Assembly: GCA_001772625.1 (NCBI GenBank)
Contig: MEVA01000016.1
Span: 1-37,490, forward strand
Length of the DNA: 37,490 nt
Direction of reading: 5' to 3'
From: a candidate division WWE3 bacterium RIFCSPHIGHO2_01_FULL_42_13
GTDB taxonomy: Bacteria; Patescibacteriota; WWE3; UBA101185; UBA10185
Below are positions 12,755 to 28,383 of this stretch, piece by piece (within the stretch, counting starts at the first letter, position 1; each line of letters begins with the position of its first letter). Below the pieces are notes generated by a model that was given only the letters and a program-made list of their open reading frames with translations, made no database searches and was not told the origin of the DNA. The position numbers were made by a program, and so were the translations under genes.

Positions 12755-14104
12755 TTATAACCCGCTACCTATCTTTCTCAACCTAAGCTGCATATGGTAT
12801 TTTTTGGCAAACCTGTGCGCCTCATCCCTTAGTCTCTGCAAAAGCTTTAAACCTGCATTATCTTTTGACAGTGAAACTTCCGATAACCCGGACAAAACTA
12901 TAGTCTCAAGCCTTTTTGCCAGTCCGATAATGGGAATTGAGAGTCCAAGTTTCTGCAAAACCTCAACCGCTGCTGAAACCTGCCCCTTTCCACCATCTAT
13001 CACAATTAAATCTGGCGTTCCCCACTTCTTCATATTTTTACTTTCAAGCTTCTCCCGCGCAAACCTTCGCCTTAAGACTTCTCGGATCATTTCAAAATCA
13101 TCTGGTGTTTCCTTAAACTTAATTCTAAATTTTCGGTATTCACTTTTATCAATACGCCCATCGGTTGCCACAACCATAGAACCCGTCGCGTCTTTTCCAA
13201 ACAGATTTGAAATATCGTAACATTCAATCCTTGACGGGAGTCTTTTTAATTCAGGAATATTTGCAACCAACTCATCTAACGCTTGTGAAACTAAATCTTC
13301 AATTAAATAAGGGTTATCCATGTACTCTTCCGGATCTCTAAAGTTGCGGGTTATATAGTTTATTTTTGAAAGAAGATCCCGCTTTTGAGCCGCCTCCTCA
13401 TATTTCATCTCTTTAGAAAGTTTTCTCATTTCTTTTTCCAGCGAACCTAGAAGTCTTGGACTTTCACCTTCTAAAAGTCTTTGGAGTTGTTTTATTTGAG
13501 CCTTATATTCATCAACGGAAACAGCATTGGTACAAGGCGCAGGACAAAGACCAACATGTCCATAAAAACACGGCGAGCCAAGACCCTGGTACCTTTGAAA
13601 CTTGGAGGTAGAACAGTCTCTAAACGGAAACATTCGACGAAGAGTCCGTAGCAAATACTTTGCAACGGTTCCGTGAGCGTACGGGCCGTAGATTTTATCA
13701 TTAGGTTTTAGTTCAGTTGCACGCGCTGTAATCACTACTGGAAGTTTTACCGGTTTTCCATTAATCTTTACTTCCTCGTTTCGAATAACAATATGAAGCG
13801 AAGATTTGTCATCTTTTAAAGCGACGTTATATTTCGGATTGTGTTTTTTAATAAGAGAAGCTTCAAGAATTAATGCTTCAAGTTCCGTTTCAACTTCGAT
13901 AGTATCCAGATCCACAATTTGTCTAACAAGAGCTGCAGTTTTTGAACTTGTGTCAATTGCTATAACAAAATAGGATTTAACCCTGTCATACAATCTTATC
14001 GCTTTACCAACATAAATAACCTTCCCACTTTCATTTTTGAACATATAAATGCCTGGGCGTTTGGGGAGATTATTTACTTTTTGTAGAAGTTTGTTTGGAG
14101 ACAC
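12755..14104 (-). CDS. uvrC: Excinuclease ABC subunit C, lacking C-terminal HhH domains
   Basis: GIY-YIG PGIYMFKNESGKVIYVGKA, Cys-rich CFYGHVGLCPAPC, IECYDISNLFGKDATGSMVV, LIVIDGGKGQVSAAVEVL, ends shortly after RDEAHRFAKKYH. Confidence 0.95.
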   Translation of the reverse strand: MSPNKLLQKVNNLPKRPGIYMFKNESGKVIYVGKAIRLYDRVKSYFVIAIDTSSKTAALVRQIVDLDTIEVETELEALILEASLIKKHNPKYNVALKDDKSSLHIVIRNEEVKINGKPVKLPVVITARATELKPNDKIYGPYAHGTVAKYLLRTLRRMFPFRDCSTSKFQRYQGLGSPCFYGHVGLCPAPCTNAVSVDEYKAQIKQLQRLLEGESPRLLGSLEKEMRKLSKEMKYEEAAQKRDLLSKINYITRNFRDPEEYMDNPYLIEDLVSQALDELVANIPELKRLPSRIECYDISNLFGKDATGSMVVATDGRIDKSEYRKFRIKFKETPDDFEMIREVLRRRFAREKLESKNMKKWGTPDLIVIDGGKGQVSAAVEVLQKLGLSIPIIGLAKRLETIVLSGLSEVSLSKDNAGLKLLQRLRDEAHRFAKKYHMQLRLRKIGSGL

Positions 14105-14631: not shown

Positions 14632-16530
14632 ATGCCTAGAATACTAAAGTCGTTAACCTTAGCCACTTTTCTGATTATTACCTCTCTTTTGCTACCCCCC
14701 GCTTTGGCAGACGAGCTATTCGACACAGAATTCAATGTCGTCTACAACATCGCCCCAACCGGTGAAGCTAGCATTGTTCAAAACATAAAAATTACCAACA
14801 AACAGGATGACGTGGTTGCGACAAATTATTCGCTAACCATAAAAGACATGAACATTTACGATGCGGCAGGAACTGATGATGAAGGTGAACTAAAACTTGA
14901 AACATCAAAAGACGTAAACACAACTACACTTAAAACAGAATTCAATGAACAAGTAATTGGAGCCGACAGAAGTTACGAATGGCAACTTAAATACAAGTCT
15001 GGAGATATTGCCACTAAAGTTGGCGAAGTTTGGAACGTACATATACCACAAGTTGAGGTTTTGGATTTAACTAAGGATTACAACGTAACGCTAGTGGTTC
15101 CAAAGGAATTTGGACCGGAAATTTTTATTTCGCCCCTACCAACAAAAGCAACTGATGAAGGTGCCTCAATAACCTATTTTTTTGATAAAAAAACCCTGGC
15201 CGAAAAAGGAATAACCGCGTCTTTCGGAAATTTTCAGACTCTAAACTTTCAACTCAAATATAACCTGTCCAACGAATCGGCTTTTACTTCATACCAGGAA
15301 ATTGCTCTGCCACCGGATATTACTAATACACAGCAAGTTTTGTATAAATCATTGGAACCTAAACCCTACAGTTTTCATACAGATGATGACGGAAACCTAA
15401 TTGCGACATATAAACTTGGCGGGCATGATGAGGTAGAGGTTATCCTCACCGGCTCTGCAAGAATTGCTGGCAAACAGATAAATCCGTTTTTTGGGGGAAG
15501 TTTGAGCGAAATACCGGGGGAGTTGAAGCGCAAGTACACCGGCGCGGAGAAATATTGGGAAGTAGACGCACCTATGATAAAGGATCTTGCCAGTTCACTT
15601 AAAGATACAGGATTAACGACATCTCAAAACGCACAAAGGGTTTACGAATATGTAACTCAAAATCTCAAATACGATTTTGATATTGTAAATAAGTCTTTTG
15701 TCGATAGAAACGGCGCGTTAAACGCATTAACAAACCCCGGTCCATGGGCGTGCATGGAATTTACCGACTCATTTATTGCAATTACGCGTGCAATGGGGAT
15801 TCCCGCCCGGGAATTAAATGGTTATGCTTTTGCCCAGGAAAGTAACCTCACTCCCCTATCAATAAATTTAAAAGGCGGGGACTTACTTCACTCGTGGGCG
15901 GAATTTTATGATCCTAATTTTGGTTGGGTGCAGGTTGATCCAACATGGGGAAATACTTCGGGGATTGATTACTTTACAAAACTAGACACAAACCACTTCG
16001 TATTTAGCATAAAGGGCACAAGTTCTGAATACCCGTTTCCTGCGGGCGCGTATAAAGTAACAGGAAACGAAAAGCAGGTTGAAGTGGATTTTGCCCAAAA
16101 CCCAGAAGAAATAAACTTTAATGAGAATATAAAAGTTTACGAAGAAGCAAATCCAAGCCTTATACTAAAACTGCTTAGCCGCTTTAGGGAATTAAAAACG
16201 TACACCATCTACAATCAGGATGGAATAAAACTTTACAACCTCAACCGAAAAAGACAAATCTTGCAACCCTTCTCTACTGCAACCGTTCAGCTTCCAAAAG
16301 ACTCTAACGAATTGTATTTTGAAGATTTTACCGGAAAAGGAAAGGTTTTAAGTTTCGCGGTTTCGCAAGGCGAGCCGCCAGAAACGCCTAAACCAGTTTT
16401 TTCTCTTTTTGGAGTTGCTGCCTTAGCACTTCTGCTGTGTACGATGATTTATTGGCTGGCAATTCATCCCGAGGCCCTGAAAAAAGTATCTCGCCGCCTG
16501 CCTCACCGCCCTCAGGCCCAAGGTCAATAA
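14632..16530 (+). CDS. Secreted/membrane-anchored transglutaminase-like (Transglut_core) protein
   Basis: Signal peptide; Cys in GPWACMEFTDSFIAITRAMGIPARELNGYAF, His in LLHSWAEFYDPNFGWVQVDPTWG; C-terminal TM and basic tail. Confidence 0.87.
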   Translation: MPRILKSLTLATFLIITSLLLPPALADELFDTEFNVVYNIAPTGEASIVQNIKITNKQDDVVATNYSLTIKDMNIYDAAGTDDEGELKLETSKDVNTTTLKTEFNEQVIGADRSYEWQLKYKSGDIATKVGEVWNVHIPQVEVLDLTKDYNVTLVVPKEFGPEIFISPLPTKATDEGASITYFFDKKTLAEKGITASFGNFQTLNFQLKYNLSNESAFTSYQEIALPPDITNTQQVLYKSLEPKPYSFHTDDDGNLIATYKLGGHDEVEVILTGSARIAGKQINPFFGGSLSEIPGELKRKYTGAEKYWEVDAPMIKDLASSLKDTGLTTSQNAQRVYEYVTQNLKYDFDIVNKSFVDRNGALNALTNPGPWACMEFTDSFIAITRAMGIPARELNGYAFAQESNLTPLSINLKGGDLLHSWAEFYDPNFGWVQVDPTWGNTSGIDYFTKLDTNHFVFSIKGTSSEYPFPAGAYKVTGNEKQVEVDFAQNPEEINFNENIKVYEEANPSLILKLLSRFRELKTYTIYNQDGIKLYNLNRKRQILQPFSTATVQLPKDSNELYFEDFTGKGKVLSFAVSQGEPPETPKPVFSLFGVAALALLLCTMIYWLAIHPEALKKVSRRLPHRPQAQGQ

Positions 16531-19375
16531 CCCAATCACAGTTTGCTATCACATCAATGTTATGTTCTATTACCAAAACAGTGTTTCCACGGGAAGTAAG
16601 ACGTTTAATTATCGTAATAAGTCTTTCTAAATCAGCAAAATGAAGTCCAGTTGTAGGTTCGTCCAAAATATATAAGGTTCTACCTTTCATTTTCTTTGAA
16701 AGTTCGGTTGCAAGTTTTACTCTTTGAGCCTCACCACCAGAAAGTGTTGGCGCAGGTTGTCCAAGCTGAATGTAACCTAAACCTACATCATTTAAAGTTT
16801 TTATTTTTCTACGGATGGCCGGAACATTTTCAAAAAACTGTAAGCCCTCTTCAACAGTCATGTCTAAAACTTCGCTAATGTTTTTATCCTTGTAGGTTAC
16901 CTCCAAAGTTTCGCGGTTGTATCTTTTACCTCTACAAACTTCGCAGTTAACATAAACATCTGGCATAAACTGCATTTCAATTTTAATTTGGCCCTCGCCA
17001 TCGCACGCTTCACAACGCCCACCCTTAACATTAAAGCTAAACCTTCCGGGGCTGTAACCGCGGATTCTTGCCGCTTCAGTTTTAGCAAAAAGGGTGCGGA
17101 TATAATCAAAGGTTTTGGTGTAAGTGGCGGGGTTGGATTTAGGTGTTCTGCCAATTGGGGATTGATCTATTGCAATTACCTTATCGACATGTTCGGTGCC
17201 TTCTATTGATTTGAAAGGTTCGGCTCTTTCATAAATCTTTAAACCAAAATCTTGTCTTAAAGCCGTATATAAAGTATCCATAACTAAAGACGACTTTCCC
17301 GAACCCGAAACTCCGGTAACACAAACGAATTTTCCAAGCGGCACTTCAAAATTAATATTCTTTAAATTTCTTCCGGTTGCGCCTTTTAGTTTCAAAAACT
17401 CGCCGTTATAAACTCTTTTTTCTTCGTCCTCATCAATAGCTTCAATGTGCTTCATAACTTGCTTGCCAACTTTCTTCTTTCCGGATAAGTACTGGCCGGT
17501 TAGAGAGTTTTTATCTTTCATTATTTCTGCAGGCGTGCCCTGAGCCACAACTTTTCCTCCGTGTGCACCAGCTCCAGGCCCAAAATCCACAATATGATCG
17601 CTTTCCATCATAGTCTCGGTATCGTGCTCAACTACCAAAACCGTATTTCCCAGATCTCTTAAGTTTTTCAAGGTTTTAATCAAACGTCCCTGATCCTTTT
17701 GATGAAGCCCAATTGAAGGTTCGTCCAAAACATACAAAACTCCGGATAACCCCGAGCCAATTTGCGAGGCGAGTCTAATTCTTTGAGCCTCACCACCAGA
17801 TAAATCTCCAGCAGCTCTACTTAAAGTTAAGTAACTTAATCCCACGTCAACCAAAAACTTAATCCTATACATAATTTCTTTCATAATTGGCGTTGCAATG
17901 GTTTGTTCACGTTCCGAGCTTTTTTCATGAAGTTCCCCGCACCACTTAGCTAAAATATCCACGGACATTTCAGCAATCTCAAATATACTTTTTCCATCTA
18001 TAACCACACCCATCGCCGTGTCATTCAAACGTGAACCTAAACACTTGGGACACGGTTCCTTAACCATATACTTTTCAATTTCACGTCTTATAAAATCGGA
18101 ATTGGTCTCTTTATGTCTGCGGATTAAATTTGGGACAATTCCTTCAAAACGCGCGTGGAAAACATTTCTTTGTCCATCCTTAACATACTCAACTTTAAAC
18201 CTTTCATCGGTTGGGGTTCCGTAAAAAAGAATTCTGCGTGAAGCTTTATCAAGTTCGCCAATTGGAGTTTTTAAAGAAAAGCCGTAGGTCTTAGAAACAG
18301 CTTCCACAACCCTTGCCGTCCATGAGTACGAGTCAAAAAGGCTTGACCACGGGAAAACCCCGCCCTCTTTAATACTTAGCCGCGGATTTACTACCAAGTC
18401 TTCCTCGATGTTTAGCTGCGTCCCCAAACCATCACAAACTAAACAGGCTCCGTGAGGCGAGTTAAACGAAAACATTCTAGGTTCCAAGTCCGGTAAAGAA
18501 ATTCCACAGTGCGGACAAGCAAAATTTTCCGAAAACATCTGGTCTTCAAACTTTTTGGGTTTGGAATCTGCGGTAAAATCAAAATCTTTATCTTTAACAA
18601 TTGTTAAAACAACATAACCACTACTAAGTTTTAACGCAGTTTCTACAGTTTGATGAAGCAAACTGTGCAAAGCTTTTTCCTCCCCTGCCTCCTTAAGTTT
18701 TTTGTGGGTTACTATTTGACGGGAAAGAATAGCTTCAATTGTATGTTTGTTGGTTTTTATAAGCTCCAGGTGATCACTTAAGTCGTAGATTTGACCGTCA
18801 ATACGGGCTCTAACGATACTCTGCTTTTGAAGGTTTTCAAAAAGCGCAGAATACTCTCCCTTTCGATCTCTAATCACCGGAGACAAAATCATTAAGCGAA
18901 CTCCCCGCGCTGTTTTAAACTCCGGCTGCTCATGAATAGTTTTTAAAATATTATCAACAATTTGTTGTGAACTTTGTCTGCTAATCTCACGCCCACACTG
19001 CGGACAATGAGGGTGACCAATTCGCGCGTATAAAAGTCGCAAGAAATCGTAAACTTCGGTAACAGTTCCAACGGTTGAGCGTGGATTATTGGAAGTAGTT
19101 TTTTGATCAATAGCAATTGCGGGGGAAAGTCCTTCAATACTATCAACATCAGGCTTGTCCATTACTCCTAAAAACTGCCGCGCGTAAGCGGAAAGGCTTT
19201 CAACATATCTGCGCTGGCCTTCGGCATAAATTGTATCCATCGCAAGAGACGATTTTCCCGAACCGGAAACGCCAGTAAATACCACGAACTTATTTTTGGG
19301 AATTTTCAAATCAATGTTCTTTAAGTTGTGCTGACGGGCACCACGGACTGTAATTGTATCTTGAGGGTTTGGCAT
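16388..19375 (-). CDS. uvrA: Excinuclease ABC subunit A
   Basis: Two ABC modules ([52 protein letters not shown]), zinc fingers [16 protein letters not shown] and [16 protein letters not shown]. Confidence 0.98.
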
Positions 19376-19384
19376 GACCTATTT

Positions 19385-19413
19385 ATATTACGGTAAAGTT
19401 TCGGGTTTGTGAA
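19385..19413 (-). promoter_or_regulatory. uvrA promoter with candidate LexA operator in the spacer
   Basis: Minus strand TTCACA (19408-19413) - 17 bp - TAATAT (19385-19390); spacer contains CGAAACTTTACCG (19391-19403). Confidence 0.6.
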
Positions 19414-25600: not shown

Positions 25601-27676
25601 TTATTCGAGGTATTTCTTAATACCTCTAACTTTGTCTCTCAAAAGAGCCGCTTTTTCAAAATTTAGTGTCTCGGCTTCGTACTTCATCATTTCGGTTAGG
25701 CGCTTGATTTCCTTTTTGATCTCATTTGGCGGCAGTTGGGCAAAATCAATCTCATCTATATCTTTGCCCAGTTTCTTAGACTCAAGTTGCTCCTCAAGTA
25801 GTTCGTCTATTAGTTTTTCTCTGAAAGGTTTTTCGATCTGGGTTGGTTTTACGCCACGGTCTTTATTGTACTTTTCCTGAAGAGCTCTTCGTCTGTCTAC
25901 CTCGGCAATGGCACTTTTCATACTGTCGGTAAAATTATCAGCGTACATTATAACCTCACCCTCCAAATGCCTTGCAGCACGGCCCATGGTTTGAACCAAA
26001 GACCTCTCAGATCGCAAAAAGCCTTCTTTATCCGCATCTAAAATGGCAACCAGCGAAACTTCGGGCAAATCCAAACCTTCCCTTAATAAGTTAATTCCAA
26101 CCAAAACGTCGTAATTTCCCCGCCTTAAGTCATCTAAAATGTTAGTTCTTTCCAGGGTCTCAATGTCAGAGTGTAAATAAGTAACTTTAATGTCTTTTTC
26201 AAGCAAAAACGACGAAAGCTCTTCGGCCATTCTTTTCGTTAAGGTTGTAACTAAAACCCTTTGGCCTTTTGAAACCTTATCTTTAATCCTTGCCTCCAAA
26301 TCCTCTATCTGACCTTTTGTTGGCAAAACCGTAACTTTAGGATCAGGAATGCCGGTTGGACGAATAAGCTGTTCAGCAACATTTCCAATGGACATGCTCA
26401 TCTCCCAATCAGCAGGTGTAGCGCTGGTATAAATAGTTTGATTTATTTTTCGCTGAAATTCATCAAAATTTAAAGGACGGTTGTCGGCGGCGGAAGGAAG
26501 CCTAAAACCATATTCAATAAGATTGCTCTTTCGCGCGTAATCTCCGTTGTACATTCCGCGGATCTGCGGGATTGTAATATGAGACTCGTCAATAATAACT
26601 AGAAAATCTTTTGGAAAAAAATCAAGCAGTGTGTAAGGGCTTTCTCCAGGCTGCCGGCCATCAAAATACCGCGAATAATTCTCAATTCCTTTGCAATACC
26701 CGATTTCCTGAATCATTTCCAAATCGTATTTTGTTCTTTGCTGTAAACGATAAGCTTGAATTGCCTTACCGGATTTATTTAATTCTTCAACCCGCAATTC
26801 CAAATCTTTTTCAATTTGTTTTATTGCCCCCTCTCTTCGTTCTTCCGCGGTAATATAGTGCTTGGCAGGGTAAATTACTCCCCAATTCCCTTCTTTCATC
26901 CGATGTTCAGTATAATCCTGTTCGTCTTGGGTTAGCGATCTTGAATGGCTTCCACGTCGCTCTGTAGGCAAGATACTGCGGTCTATTCTGGTTCCCGTCA
27001 AAGGATCAAAATGAGTAACTGAAACTAAAGTATCGCCTAAAAGCTCCAGCCGTACACCATAATCCTGATACGCCGGAAAAACGTCAACCACATCTCCGCG
27101 AACCCTGTAAGTGCCGCGCTTAAACTCAAACTCGTTTCTTTCGTAATGAAGCTGATCTAATCGTTTTAGCAAATCCATTTGGCGAAGTTTCATGCCGCCA
27201 ACTAAACCTAGCGCAACTTTTGAGTACTCAGCAGGAGAACCTAAATTGTAAATGCATGAAACAGACGAAACGATAATTACGTCTTTTCTCGTCATAAGTG
27301 AGGTTGTTGCCGAAAGCCTAAGTTTATCTATTTCCTGATTTATGTCAGCATCTTTTTCAATGTAAGTGTCGGTTTGAGGAATGTAGGATTCGGGCTGGTA
27401 ATAATCGTAGTAACTTACAAAATATTCAACGGCATTTTCCGGAAAATAATCTCGGAATTCTTGATAAAGTTGGGCTGCCAAAGTTTTGTTATGCGAAATA
27501 ATGAGCGTTGGTCTTTGAACATTTTGAATAACGTTGGCAATCGAAAAAGTTTTGCCCGAACCTGTAACCCCGAGAAGAGTTTGGTGCCTTTCACCCTTTT
27601 TCAAACCTTCAGTTAGCTGCTTTATCGCAGTTGGTTGGTCTCCCGTTGGTTTGTAATCGGAAACTAGCTTAAACAC
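25601..27676 (-). CDS. uvrB: Excinuclease ABC subunit B
   Basis: LLGVTGSGKTFSIANVI, YFVSYYDYYQPESYIP beta-hairpin region, IDESHITIPQIRGMYNGD, C-terminal UVR motif MMKYEAETLNFEKAALLRDKV; GTG start. Confidence 0.98.
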   Translation of the reverse strand: MFKLVSDYKPTGDQPTAIKQLTEGLKKGERHQTLLGVTGSGKTFSIANVIQNVQRPTLIISHNKTLAAQLYQEFRDYFPENAVEYFVSYYDYYQPESYIPQTDTYIEKDADINQEIDKLRLSATTSLMTRKDVIIVSSVSCIYNLGSPAEYSKVALGLVGGMKLRQMDLLKRLDQLHYERNEFEFKRGTYRVRGDVVDVFPAYQDYGVRLELLGDTLVSVTHFDPLTGTRIDRSILPTERRGSHSRSLTQDEQDYTEHRMKEGNWGVIYPAKHYITAEERREGAIKQIEKDLELRVEELNKSGKAIQAYRLQQRTKYDLEMIQEIGYCKGIENYSRYFDGRQPGESPYTLLDFFPKDFLVIIDESHITIPQIRGMYNGDYARKSNLIEYGFRLPSAADNRPLNFDEFQRKINQTIYTSATPADWEMSMSIGNVAEQLIRPTGIPDPKVTVLPTKGQIEDLEARIKDKVSKGQRVLVTTLTKRMAEELSSFLLEKDIKVTYLHSDIETLERTNILDDLRRGNYDVLVGINLLREGLDLPEVSLVAILDADKEGFLRSERSLVQTMGRAARHLEGEVIMYADNFTDSMKSAIAEVDRRRALQEKYNKDRGVKPTQIEKPFREKLIDELLEEQLESKKLGKDIDEIDFAQLPPNEIKKEIKRLTEMMKYEAETLNFEKAALLRDKVRGIKKYLE

Positions 27677-27701
27677 TGATTTATTGTAACATCAAAACCT
27701 C

Positions 27702-27731
27702 TTGACATCTTCGGTAAAAGTTCGCTAATAT
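27702..27731 (+). promoter_or_regulatory. lexA promoter with candidate LexA operator in the spacer
   Basis: TTGACA (27702-27707) - 18 bp - TAATAT (27726-27731); spacer contains CGGTAAAAGTTCG (27712-27724). Confidence 0.62.
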
Positions 27732-27753
27732 GAATATACCGAAAGAAACACAA

Positions 27754-28383
27754 ATGAGTCCAGTTACACTTTATAAACGCCAAAAAGAAATCTTAAACTT
27801 TATCTCTCAATACATTCAGAAAAATGGAACTTCGCCCACCCTTCAAGAAATTGCCAATGCCATGAACCTTTCGTCCCTTGCCACCGTCCACGAACACTTG
27901 CAAACACTGGCCAGAAAAGGCGTCATTAGAAGGTTTGAGGGCACAGTTAGAGGAATTGAGGTTTTGGATCAAACAATTGAAGCGTCATTGCAAGGAATTC
28001 AGCTTCCACTAGTGGGCTACATTGCCGCAGGTGAGCCAATTGAGGCTCTTGAGAACCCCTTAGAAACCGTAACTGTAGCTCCAGACCTAGTTTCGCAAAC
28101 AAAGCGCTGTTACGTTCTTCAGGTTAAAGGCGATTCCATGATTAAAGAGGGTATTTTTAACGGCGATAATGTGGTCATTCAGCAGCAAGAAACGGCAAAT
28201 AACGGCGATATAGTGGTGGCTTTACTTCACAACGAATTTGCAACTCTAAAAACCTTCTACCGTGAAAAGGGTGGAAAAGTGAGACTCCAACCCGCCAACG
28301 ACACAATGGATCCGATAATTGAAGATGCGAAAAACATTAGAATTCAAGGAAAAGTTACCGGGGTCATAAGACGGTACATCTAA
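27754..28383 (+). CDS. lexA: LexA repressor
   Basis: MSPVTLYKRQKEILNFISQYIQKNGTSPTLQEIANAMNLSS HTH; Ala-Gly cleavage site YIAAGEP; Ser VKGDSMI; Lys FATLKTF. Start moved from 27730 because that ATG overlaps the -10 box. Confidence 0.94.
   Translation: MSPVTLYKRQKEILNFISQYIQKNGTSPTLQEIANAMNLSSLATVHEHLQTLARKGVIRRFEGTVRGIEVLDQTIEASLQGIQLPLVGYIAAGEPIEALENPLETVTVAPDLVSQTKRCYVLQVKGDSMIKEGIFNGDNVVIQQQETANNGDIVVALLHNEFATLKTFYREKGGKVRLQPANDTMDPIIEDAKNIRIQGKVTGVIRRYI

Follow-up and report, generated by a model that had tools for sequence, protein, structure and literature searches.

What LexA probably recognizes in a WWE3 genome

The divergent lexA-uvrB promoter region of a WWE3 (Katanobacteria) genome raises the question of which sequence serves as the SOS box in this uncultured lineage of Patescibacteria. 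The window (the whole 37,490-nucleotide stretch of DNA analysed here) is part of a 154-kb contig from a 642-kb genome, 87% complete. In a public genome collection, the nearest relative of its lexA to turn up belongs to a candidate division WWE3 bacterium. The regulator itself is a true LexA: it scores 207 bits against TIGR00498 (cut-off 110.95), its wHTH and S24 autopeptidase domains both lie above their curated cut-offs, and alignment with solved LexA structures finds the AAG-E cleavage site and the Ser/Lys dyad (GdSM and tlK positions) retained. Translation most likely starts at ATG 27754 rather than at ATG 27730, as the resulting N-terminus (MSPVTLY...) is conserved in lexA orthologues; the upstream ATG overlaps the -10 box of the lexA promoter (Table 1).

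An earlier note on this DNA had drawn attention to a 13-mer, CGGTAAAAGTTCG, at 27712-27724 between the TTGACA and TAATAT boxes of lexA, and to a similar minus-strand sequence, CGAAACTTTACCG, lying against the TAATAT box of uvrA at 19391-19403, and had proposed that the shared element is the SOS box of the lineage. Both positions are correct and the two sequences do match at 11 of 13 residues. Taken alone, this identity is weak evidence, since 66 of 400 shuffled promoter pairs (16%) reach the same value. The claim was therefore decided by comparison across genomes.

Table 1. Positions of promoter elements, predicted operators and genes. Coordinates refer to the window except in the last line.
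Feature	Position	Strand	Basis
LexA operator O1 (predicted), TTCGGTA-AAAG-TTCGCTA	27710..27727	+	Profile search; conserved in orthologous promoters
lexA -35 box, TTGACA	27702..27707	+	TTGAC invariant across 22 aligned lexA promoters
lexA -10 box, TAATAT (overlaps the end of O1)	27726..27731	+	TAnnaT conserved, 22 aligned lexA promoters
O2, candidate weaker LexA operator, TTTGTGTTTCTTTCGGTA	27737..27754	-	Profile rank 3; moderate column conservation; TTTG-half variant
lexA (LexA repressor), revised start	27754..28383	+	TIGR00498; Pfam LexA_DNA_bind (PF01726) and Peptidase_S24 (PF00717)
uvrB extended -10 (probable), TGTTACAAT	27683..27691	-	Sequence; relatives also have TGnTAnAAT ahead of uvrB
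uvrB, divergent from lexA	25601..27676	-	TIGR00631, 984.6 bits
LexA operator of uvrA (predicted), TACGGTA-AAGT-TTCGGGT	19389..19406	+ (read against the gene)	Profile rank 2; orthologue conservation
uvrA -10 box, TAATAT	19385..19390	-	Sequence; TAnnaT box after the site in most relatives
uvrA -35-like box, TTCACA	19408..19413	-	Sequence; CACAAACCCGAA recurs in relatives
uvrA	16388..19375	-	TIGR00630, 1330 bits
86-87 aa small protein	L170:1722-1982, L156:2019-2279, L165:1735-1995, L171:1700-1963		

A direct repeat in the lexA and uvrA promoters

A repeat search made with no prior motif ranked TTCG-N7-TTCG at the top; it occurs in 22 of the 24 lexA promoters of the order, against 0.17 expected in shuffled sequences. 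The ten strongest repeats did not include an inverted TTCG/CGAA pair, whatever the spacing, and no rival element recurred as strongly in these promoters. Alignment of the orthologous upstream regions yields an invariant TTGAC, followed by TTCG kr TA ww n TTCGgTA, which leads into a TAnnaT -10 box; the site columns that overlap this box are constrained by promoter function as well. The 18-bp consensus, TTCGgTA-N4-TTCGgTA, thus consists of two tandem half-sites, with the second copy in direct orientation. In the window, the corresponding site (O1) is a direct repeat with an 11-bp period that fills the spacer between the -35 and -10 boxes of lexA and is common to the divergent uvrB gene. Its location in the lexA core promoter, where an autorepressor would be expected to act, is kept across the order.

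These data show that the shared element was real but wrongly cut. Conservation covers 18 bp, which rules out the 13-mer as a unit: CGGTAAAAGTTCG joins the tail of the first copy to the head of the second, and its two ends therefore looked unlike. What had been read as a Gram-positive half-site next to an unrelated half is instead a pair of tandem TTCGgTA copies.

The same repeat is found in opposite orientation within the -35/-10 spacer of uvrA. All 24 of the order's uvrA promoters that were examined contain it (0.01 expected), and the sequence flanking it is not conserved among relatives. One genus departs from this arrangement, its site being placed upstream of the -35 box. The systematic T-to-A change at the second base of the uvrA site would be accounted for by its overlap with the -10 box (TACCGTAtAAT). 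With the repeat recurring at this frequency at lexA and uvrA, the proposal of a lineage-specific SOS box gains firm support.

A second copy (O2) occurs in the lexA 5' leader, where TACCGAA-AGAA-ACACAAA faces O1 across 9 bp. Its TTTG-type half is a variant also seen at separate uvrB promoters, and O2 is a probable, though not proven, second and weaker operator of lexA. On the minus strand, the probable extended -10 of uvrB lies immediately downstream of O1. Where uvrB is located apart from lexA, it has a site of its own, usually a softer TTTGGGT-TTTA-TTTGGTA against a TGnTAAAAT extended -10; altogether, the repeat is found in nearly all uvrB promoters examined.

Distribution of the site in the genome and across the order

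To scan the window, we used a profile built solely from other genomes, leaving out this genome's own sites. O1 (27710), the uvrA site (19389) and O2 (27737) ranked 1, 2 and 3 among 74,946 window positions. Since lexA and uvrA sites went into the profile, there is some circularity in using it afterwards; this does not apply to the de novo repeat search or to the genome-wide pattern counts. Promoters elsewhere in the genome were covered by pattern searches and by inspection of targeted stretches. A loose pattern, TWCGNNWWNNNTTCGNNW, has 6 matches in the 642-kb genome, the reversed control pattern having 14. Only three of the 6 are intergenic, and these fall in the lexA/uvrB, uvrA and dinB promoters; the three others (L259, L260 and L262) lie inside coding sequence and were discarded. 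Allowing two mismatches gave 76 matches, no more than the reversed control, and this version of the search was dropped. The dinB (Y-family polymerase) site, at contig position 46918-46935, is weaker (13.1 bits with the profile) and sits between a -35-like TTTACT and TATAAA, about 11 bp ahead of the ATG. A MAFFT alignment of the genome's three promoters is uninformative, since their sites do not all run in one orientation. The earlier note had seen no element upstream of uvrC (12755-14104), and we find no site there either.

Across 27 genomes, a stricter pattern, TWCGKNWWNNNTTCGGKW, produced 51 matches versus 18 for the control. Forty-five of these lie upstream of uvrA (17), lexA (15), Y-polymerase/umuDC operons (9) or rarA (4); the remainder comprise one match at recA (G004) and 5 at other genes. 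Enrichment at DNA-repair genes, which the earlier note had named as the check to be made, is thus borne out: besides lexA and uvrA, the site recurs at uvrB, dinB/Y-polymerase, umuDC and some rarA promoters, with few sites elsewhere, as would be expected of an SOS box. Outside the window's own genome, nearly all of the Y-polymerase operons examined carry a site, which in most cases is some 320 bp ahead of the polymerase motif, directly before a small conserved ORF. In several WWE3 genomes, the protein preceding the polymerase in the operator-marked operon is a conserved one of 86-87 aa (Table 1). It has no match in Pfam or NCBIfam and is a possible uncharacterised partner of the Y-family polymerase.

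The gene set departs from expectation at recA. A recA site had been predicted, and its presence would be usual for an SOS box; 21 of the 22 recA upstream regions examined contain no convincing site. The only convincing operator-like sequence near recA in the order, TTCGGTATAGCTTCGGGT, is about 210 bp upstream of the gene in one genome (L174:1009-1026, G004). Elsewhere, recA is a core SOS gene and usually the tightest LexA partner; it is a common SOS target, not a defining one. What the missing site narrows is the regulon; the operator claim is unaffected.

The repeat follows the LexA recognition helix

The comparison was extended beyond the order by examining the upstream regions of 60 lexA genes that belong to other families in the class and phylum. 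Where LexA has a recognition helix of the (A/T)TVxEH type, TTCG-N7-TTCG once more ranks first (15 of 34 regions, 0.38 expected). LexAs whose helix reads SPMGVVSHL, SPRAVAYHL or similar have no such repeat upstream of their genes, where a GTATAC-rich element is often present instead. Profile scores differ between the helix groups with a Mann-Whitney p of 2e-8, a value to be read with the reservation that related genomes are not independent. That the motif follows the type of LexA helix links the element to LexA and not to some other regulator.

The GTATAC-rich element, e.g., TATAGTATACACTTACACTATACAAA, was seen upstream of lexA in L224, L227, L219, L215, L251, L211 and L221, all encoding LexAs of the SPMGVVSHL type. 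It is probably the operator of these proteins.

Probable assignment of the element to LexA

We consider it very probable that the tandem TTCGgTA copies, 11 bp apart, constitute the LexA operator (SOS box) of this genome, an assignment made from sequence comparison. The site, its positions, its conservation, the set of genes that carry it and its co-variation with the LexA recognition helix are established. A different transcription factor co-regulating DNA repair genes could in principle own the element, with LexA binding elsewhere, and the lack of a site at recA would suit such an arrangement. This seems quite improbable, as lexA is among the most consistently marked genes, presence of the motif tracks the helix type of LexA across the phylum, and the de novo search returned no other element as strongly recurrent in lexA promoters.

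Less probable still is a Gram-positive (DinR-type) palindrome, CGAAC-N4-GTTCG, in which one half is degenerate. The recognition helix of the window's LexA, SSLATVHEHL, resembles that of Gram-positive LexA. The TTCG/CGAA core also occurs in the SOS box of Bacillus, CGAACN4GTTCG (PMC9578287, table). Against this, 22 of the 24 lexA promoters of the order carry the direct repeat, and no inverted pair is among the ten strongest repeats, a result on which the palindromic reading was rejected. Finally, the likeness between two AT-rich promoters might have been fortuitous, and the frequency of 11/13 matches among shuffled pairs of both regions shows how easily this could happen for a single pair. The site is conserved throughout the order at the promoters of lexA, uvrA, uvrB and Y-polymerases while its flanks are not; this makes chance the least credible of these explanations, and the cross-genome counts already refute it.

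Comparison with known LexA sites

Direct-repeat LexA sites are already a known kind. A passage in PMC7739468 states that LexA evolved direct-repeat recognition several times, and supports this with three papers, including that of Sanchez-Osuna, Barbe and Erill (2017; doi 10.1111/1462-2920.13826) on the LexA network of Patescibacteria. The latter may already report the operator described here.

The closest parallel in geometry is the LexA-bound GTTC-N7-GTTC site of alphaproteobacteria (Caulobacter), which likewise has four-base cores 7 bp apart and an 11-bp period. The two motifs differ, however: the WWE3 core is TTCG with a GTA tail, and the base preceding TTC varies (C, A, T or G), so that a GTTC core is not found in both copies. 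The WWE3 site would work alike through another motif. It also differs in its host, a member of Patescibacteria, and in that recA is mostly not part of the regulon. With the DinR (LexA) box of Bacillus and Staphylococcus, the WWE3 site has the CGAA/TTCG half-site core in common; the DinR box is an inverted repeat, whereas the WWE3 site is a direct repeat only. The WWE3 site thus combines the alphaproteobacterial geometry with a core nearer to the Gram-positive half-site. Another independently evolved direct repeat, the LexA motif of Balneolaeota, TTACACATATTTTWTACATA, is also found at translesion polymerase genes, but its half-site differs and its regulon includes recA.

Proposed mode of regulation

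Binding by LexA, the geometry of the dimer, repression and induction are inferred from what is general to the family. The 11-bp period being one helical turn, a LexA dimer would contact the two copies from the same side of the double helix. At lexA, uvrA and dinB, the sites fill the -35/-10 spacer and touch the -10 box, so that bound LexA would block RNA polymerase. In the divergent lexA-uvrB region, a single site would repress both genes; autorepression would be reinforced by O2, the weaker copy that faces it in the lexA leader. Upon DNA damage, activated RecA would trigger self-cleavage of LexA at Ala-Gly, which would open the promoters; the recA gene would mostly lie outside the regulon. 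Since recA has no site in most genomes, induction of the gene set by damage is an assumption.

In the wider picture, LexA of WWE3 would control lexA, uvrA/uvrB and a translesion polymerase through a direct repeat, doubled and facing at lexA, with recA outside its reach, and Patescibacteria would comprise at least two LexA lineages with different helices and operators (the TTCGgTA repeat versus the GTATAC type); we regard the chances of this picture as evenly balanced. The operator assignment is of interest in that an uncultured lineage gains a precise SOS operator, with a minimal regulon of lexA-uvrB, uvrA and dinB; the conserved targets are nucleotide excision repair and lesion bypass, not recA. 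For the question of how LexA changes its specificity, the link between helix and operator in Patescibacteria provides a natural data set.

Two further genes with operator-like sequences were noted in one genome (G022). One encodes a second LexA-like protein (L030; G022:C1:750829-751496), 47% identical to the LexA of the window, and has a strong operator copy, TTCGTAAGATTTTCGGTA, ahead of it. The other is a Clp-protease-like gene (L172:1960-2613; PF00574), whose start directly follows an operator-like site.
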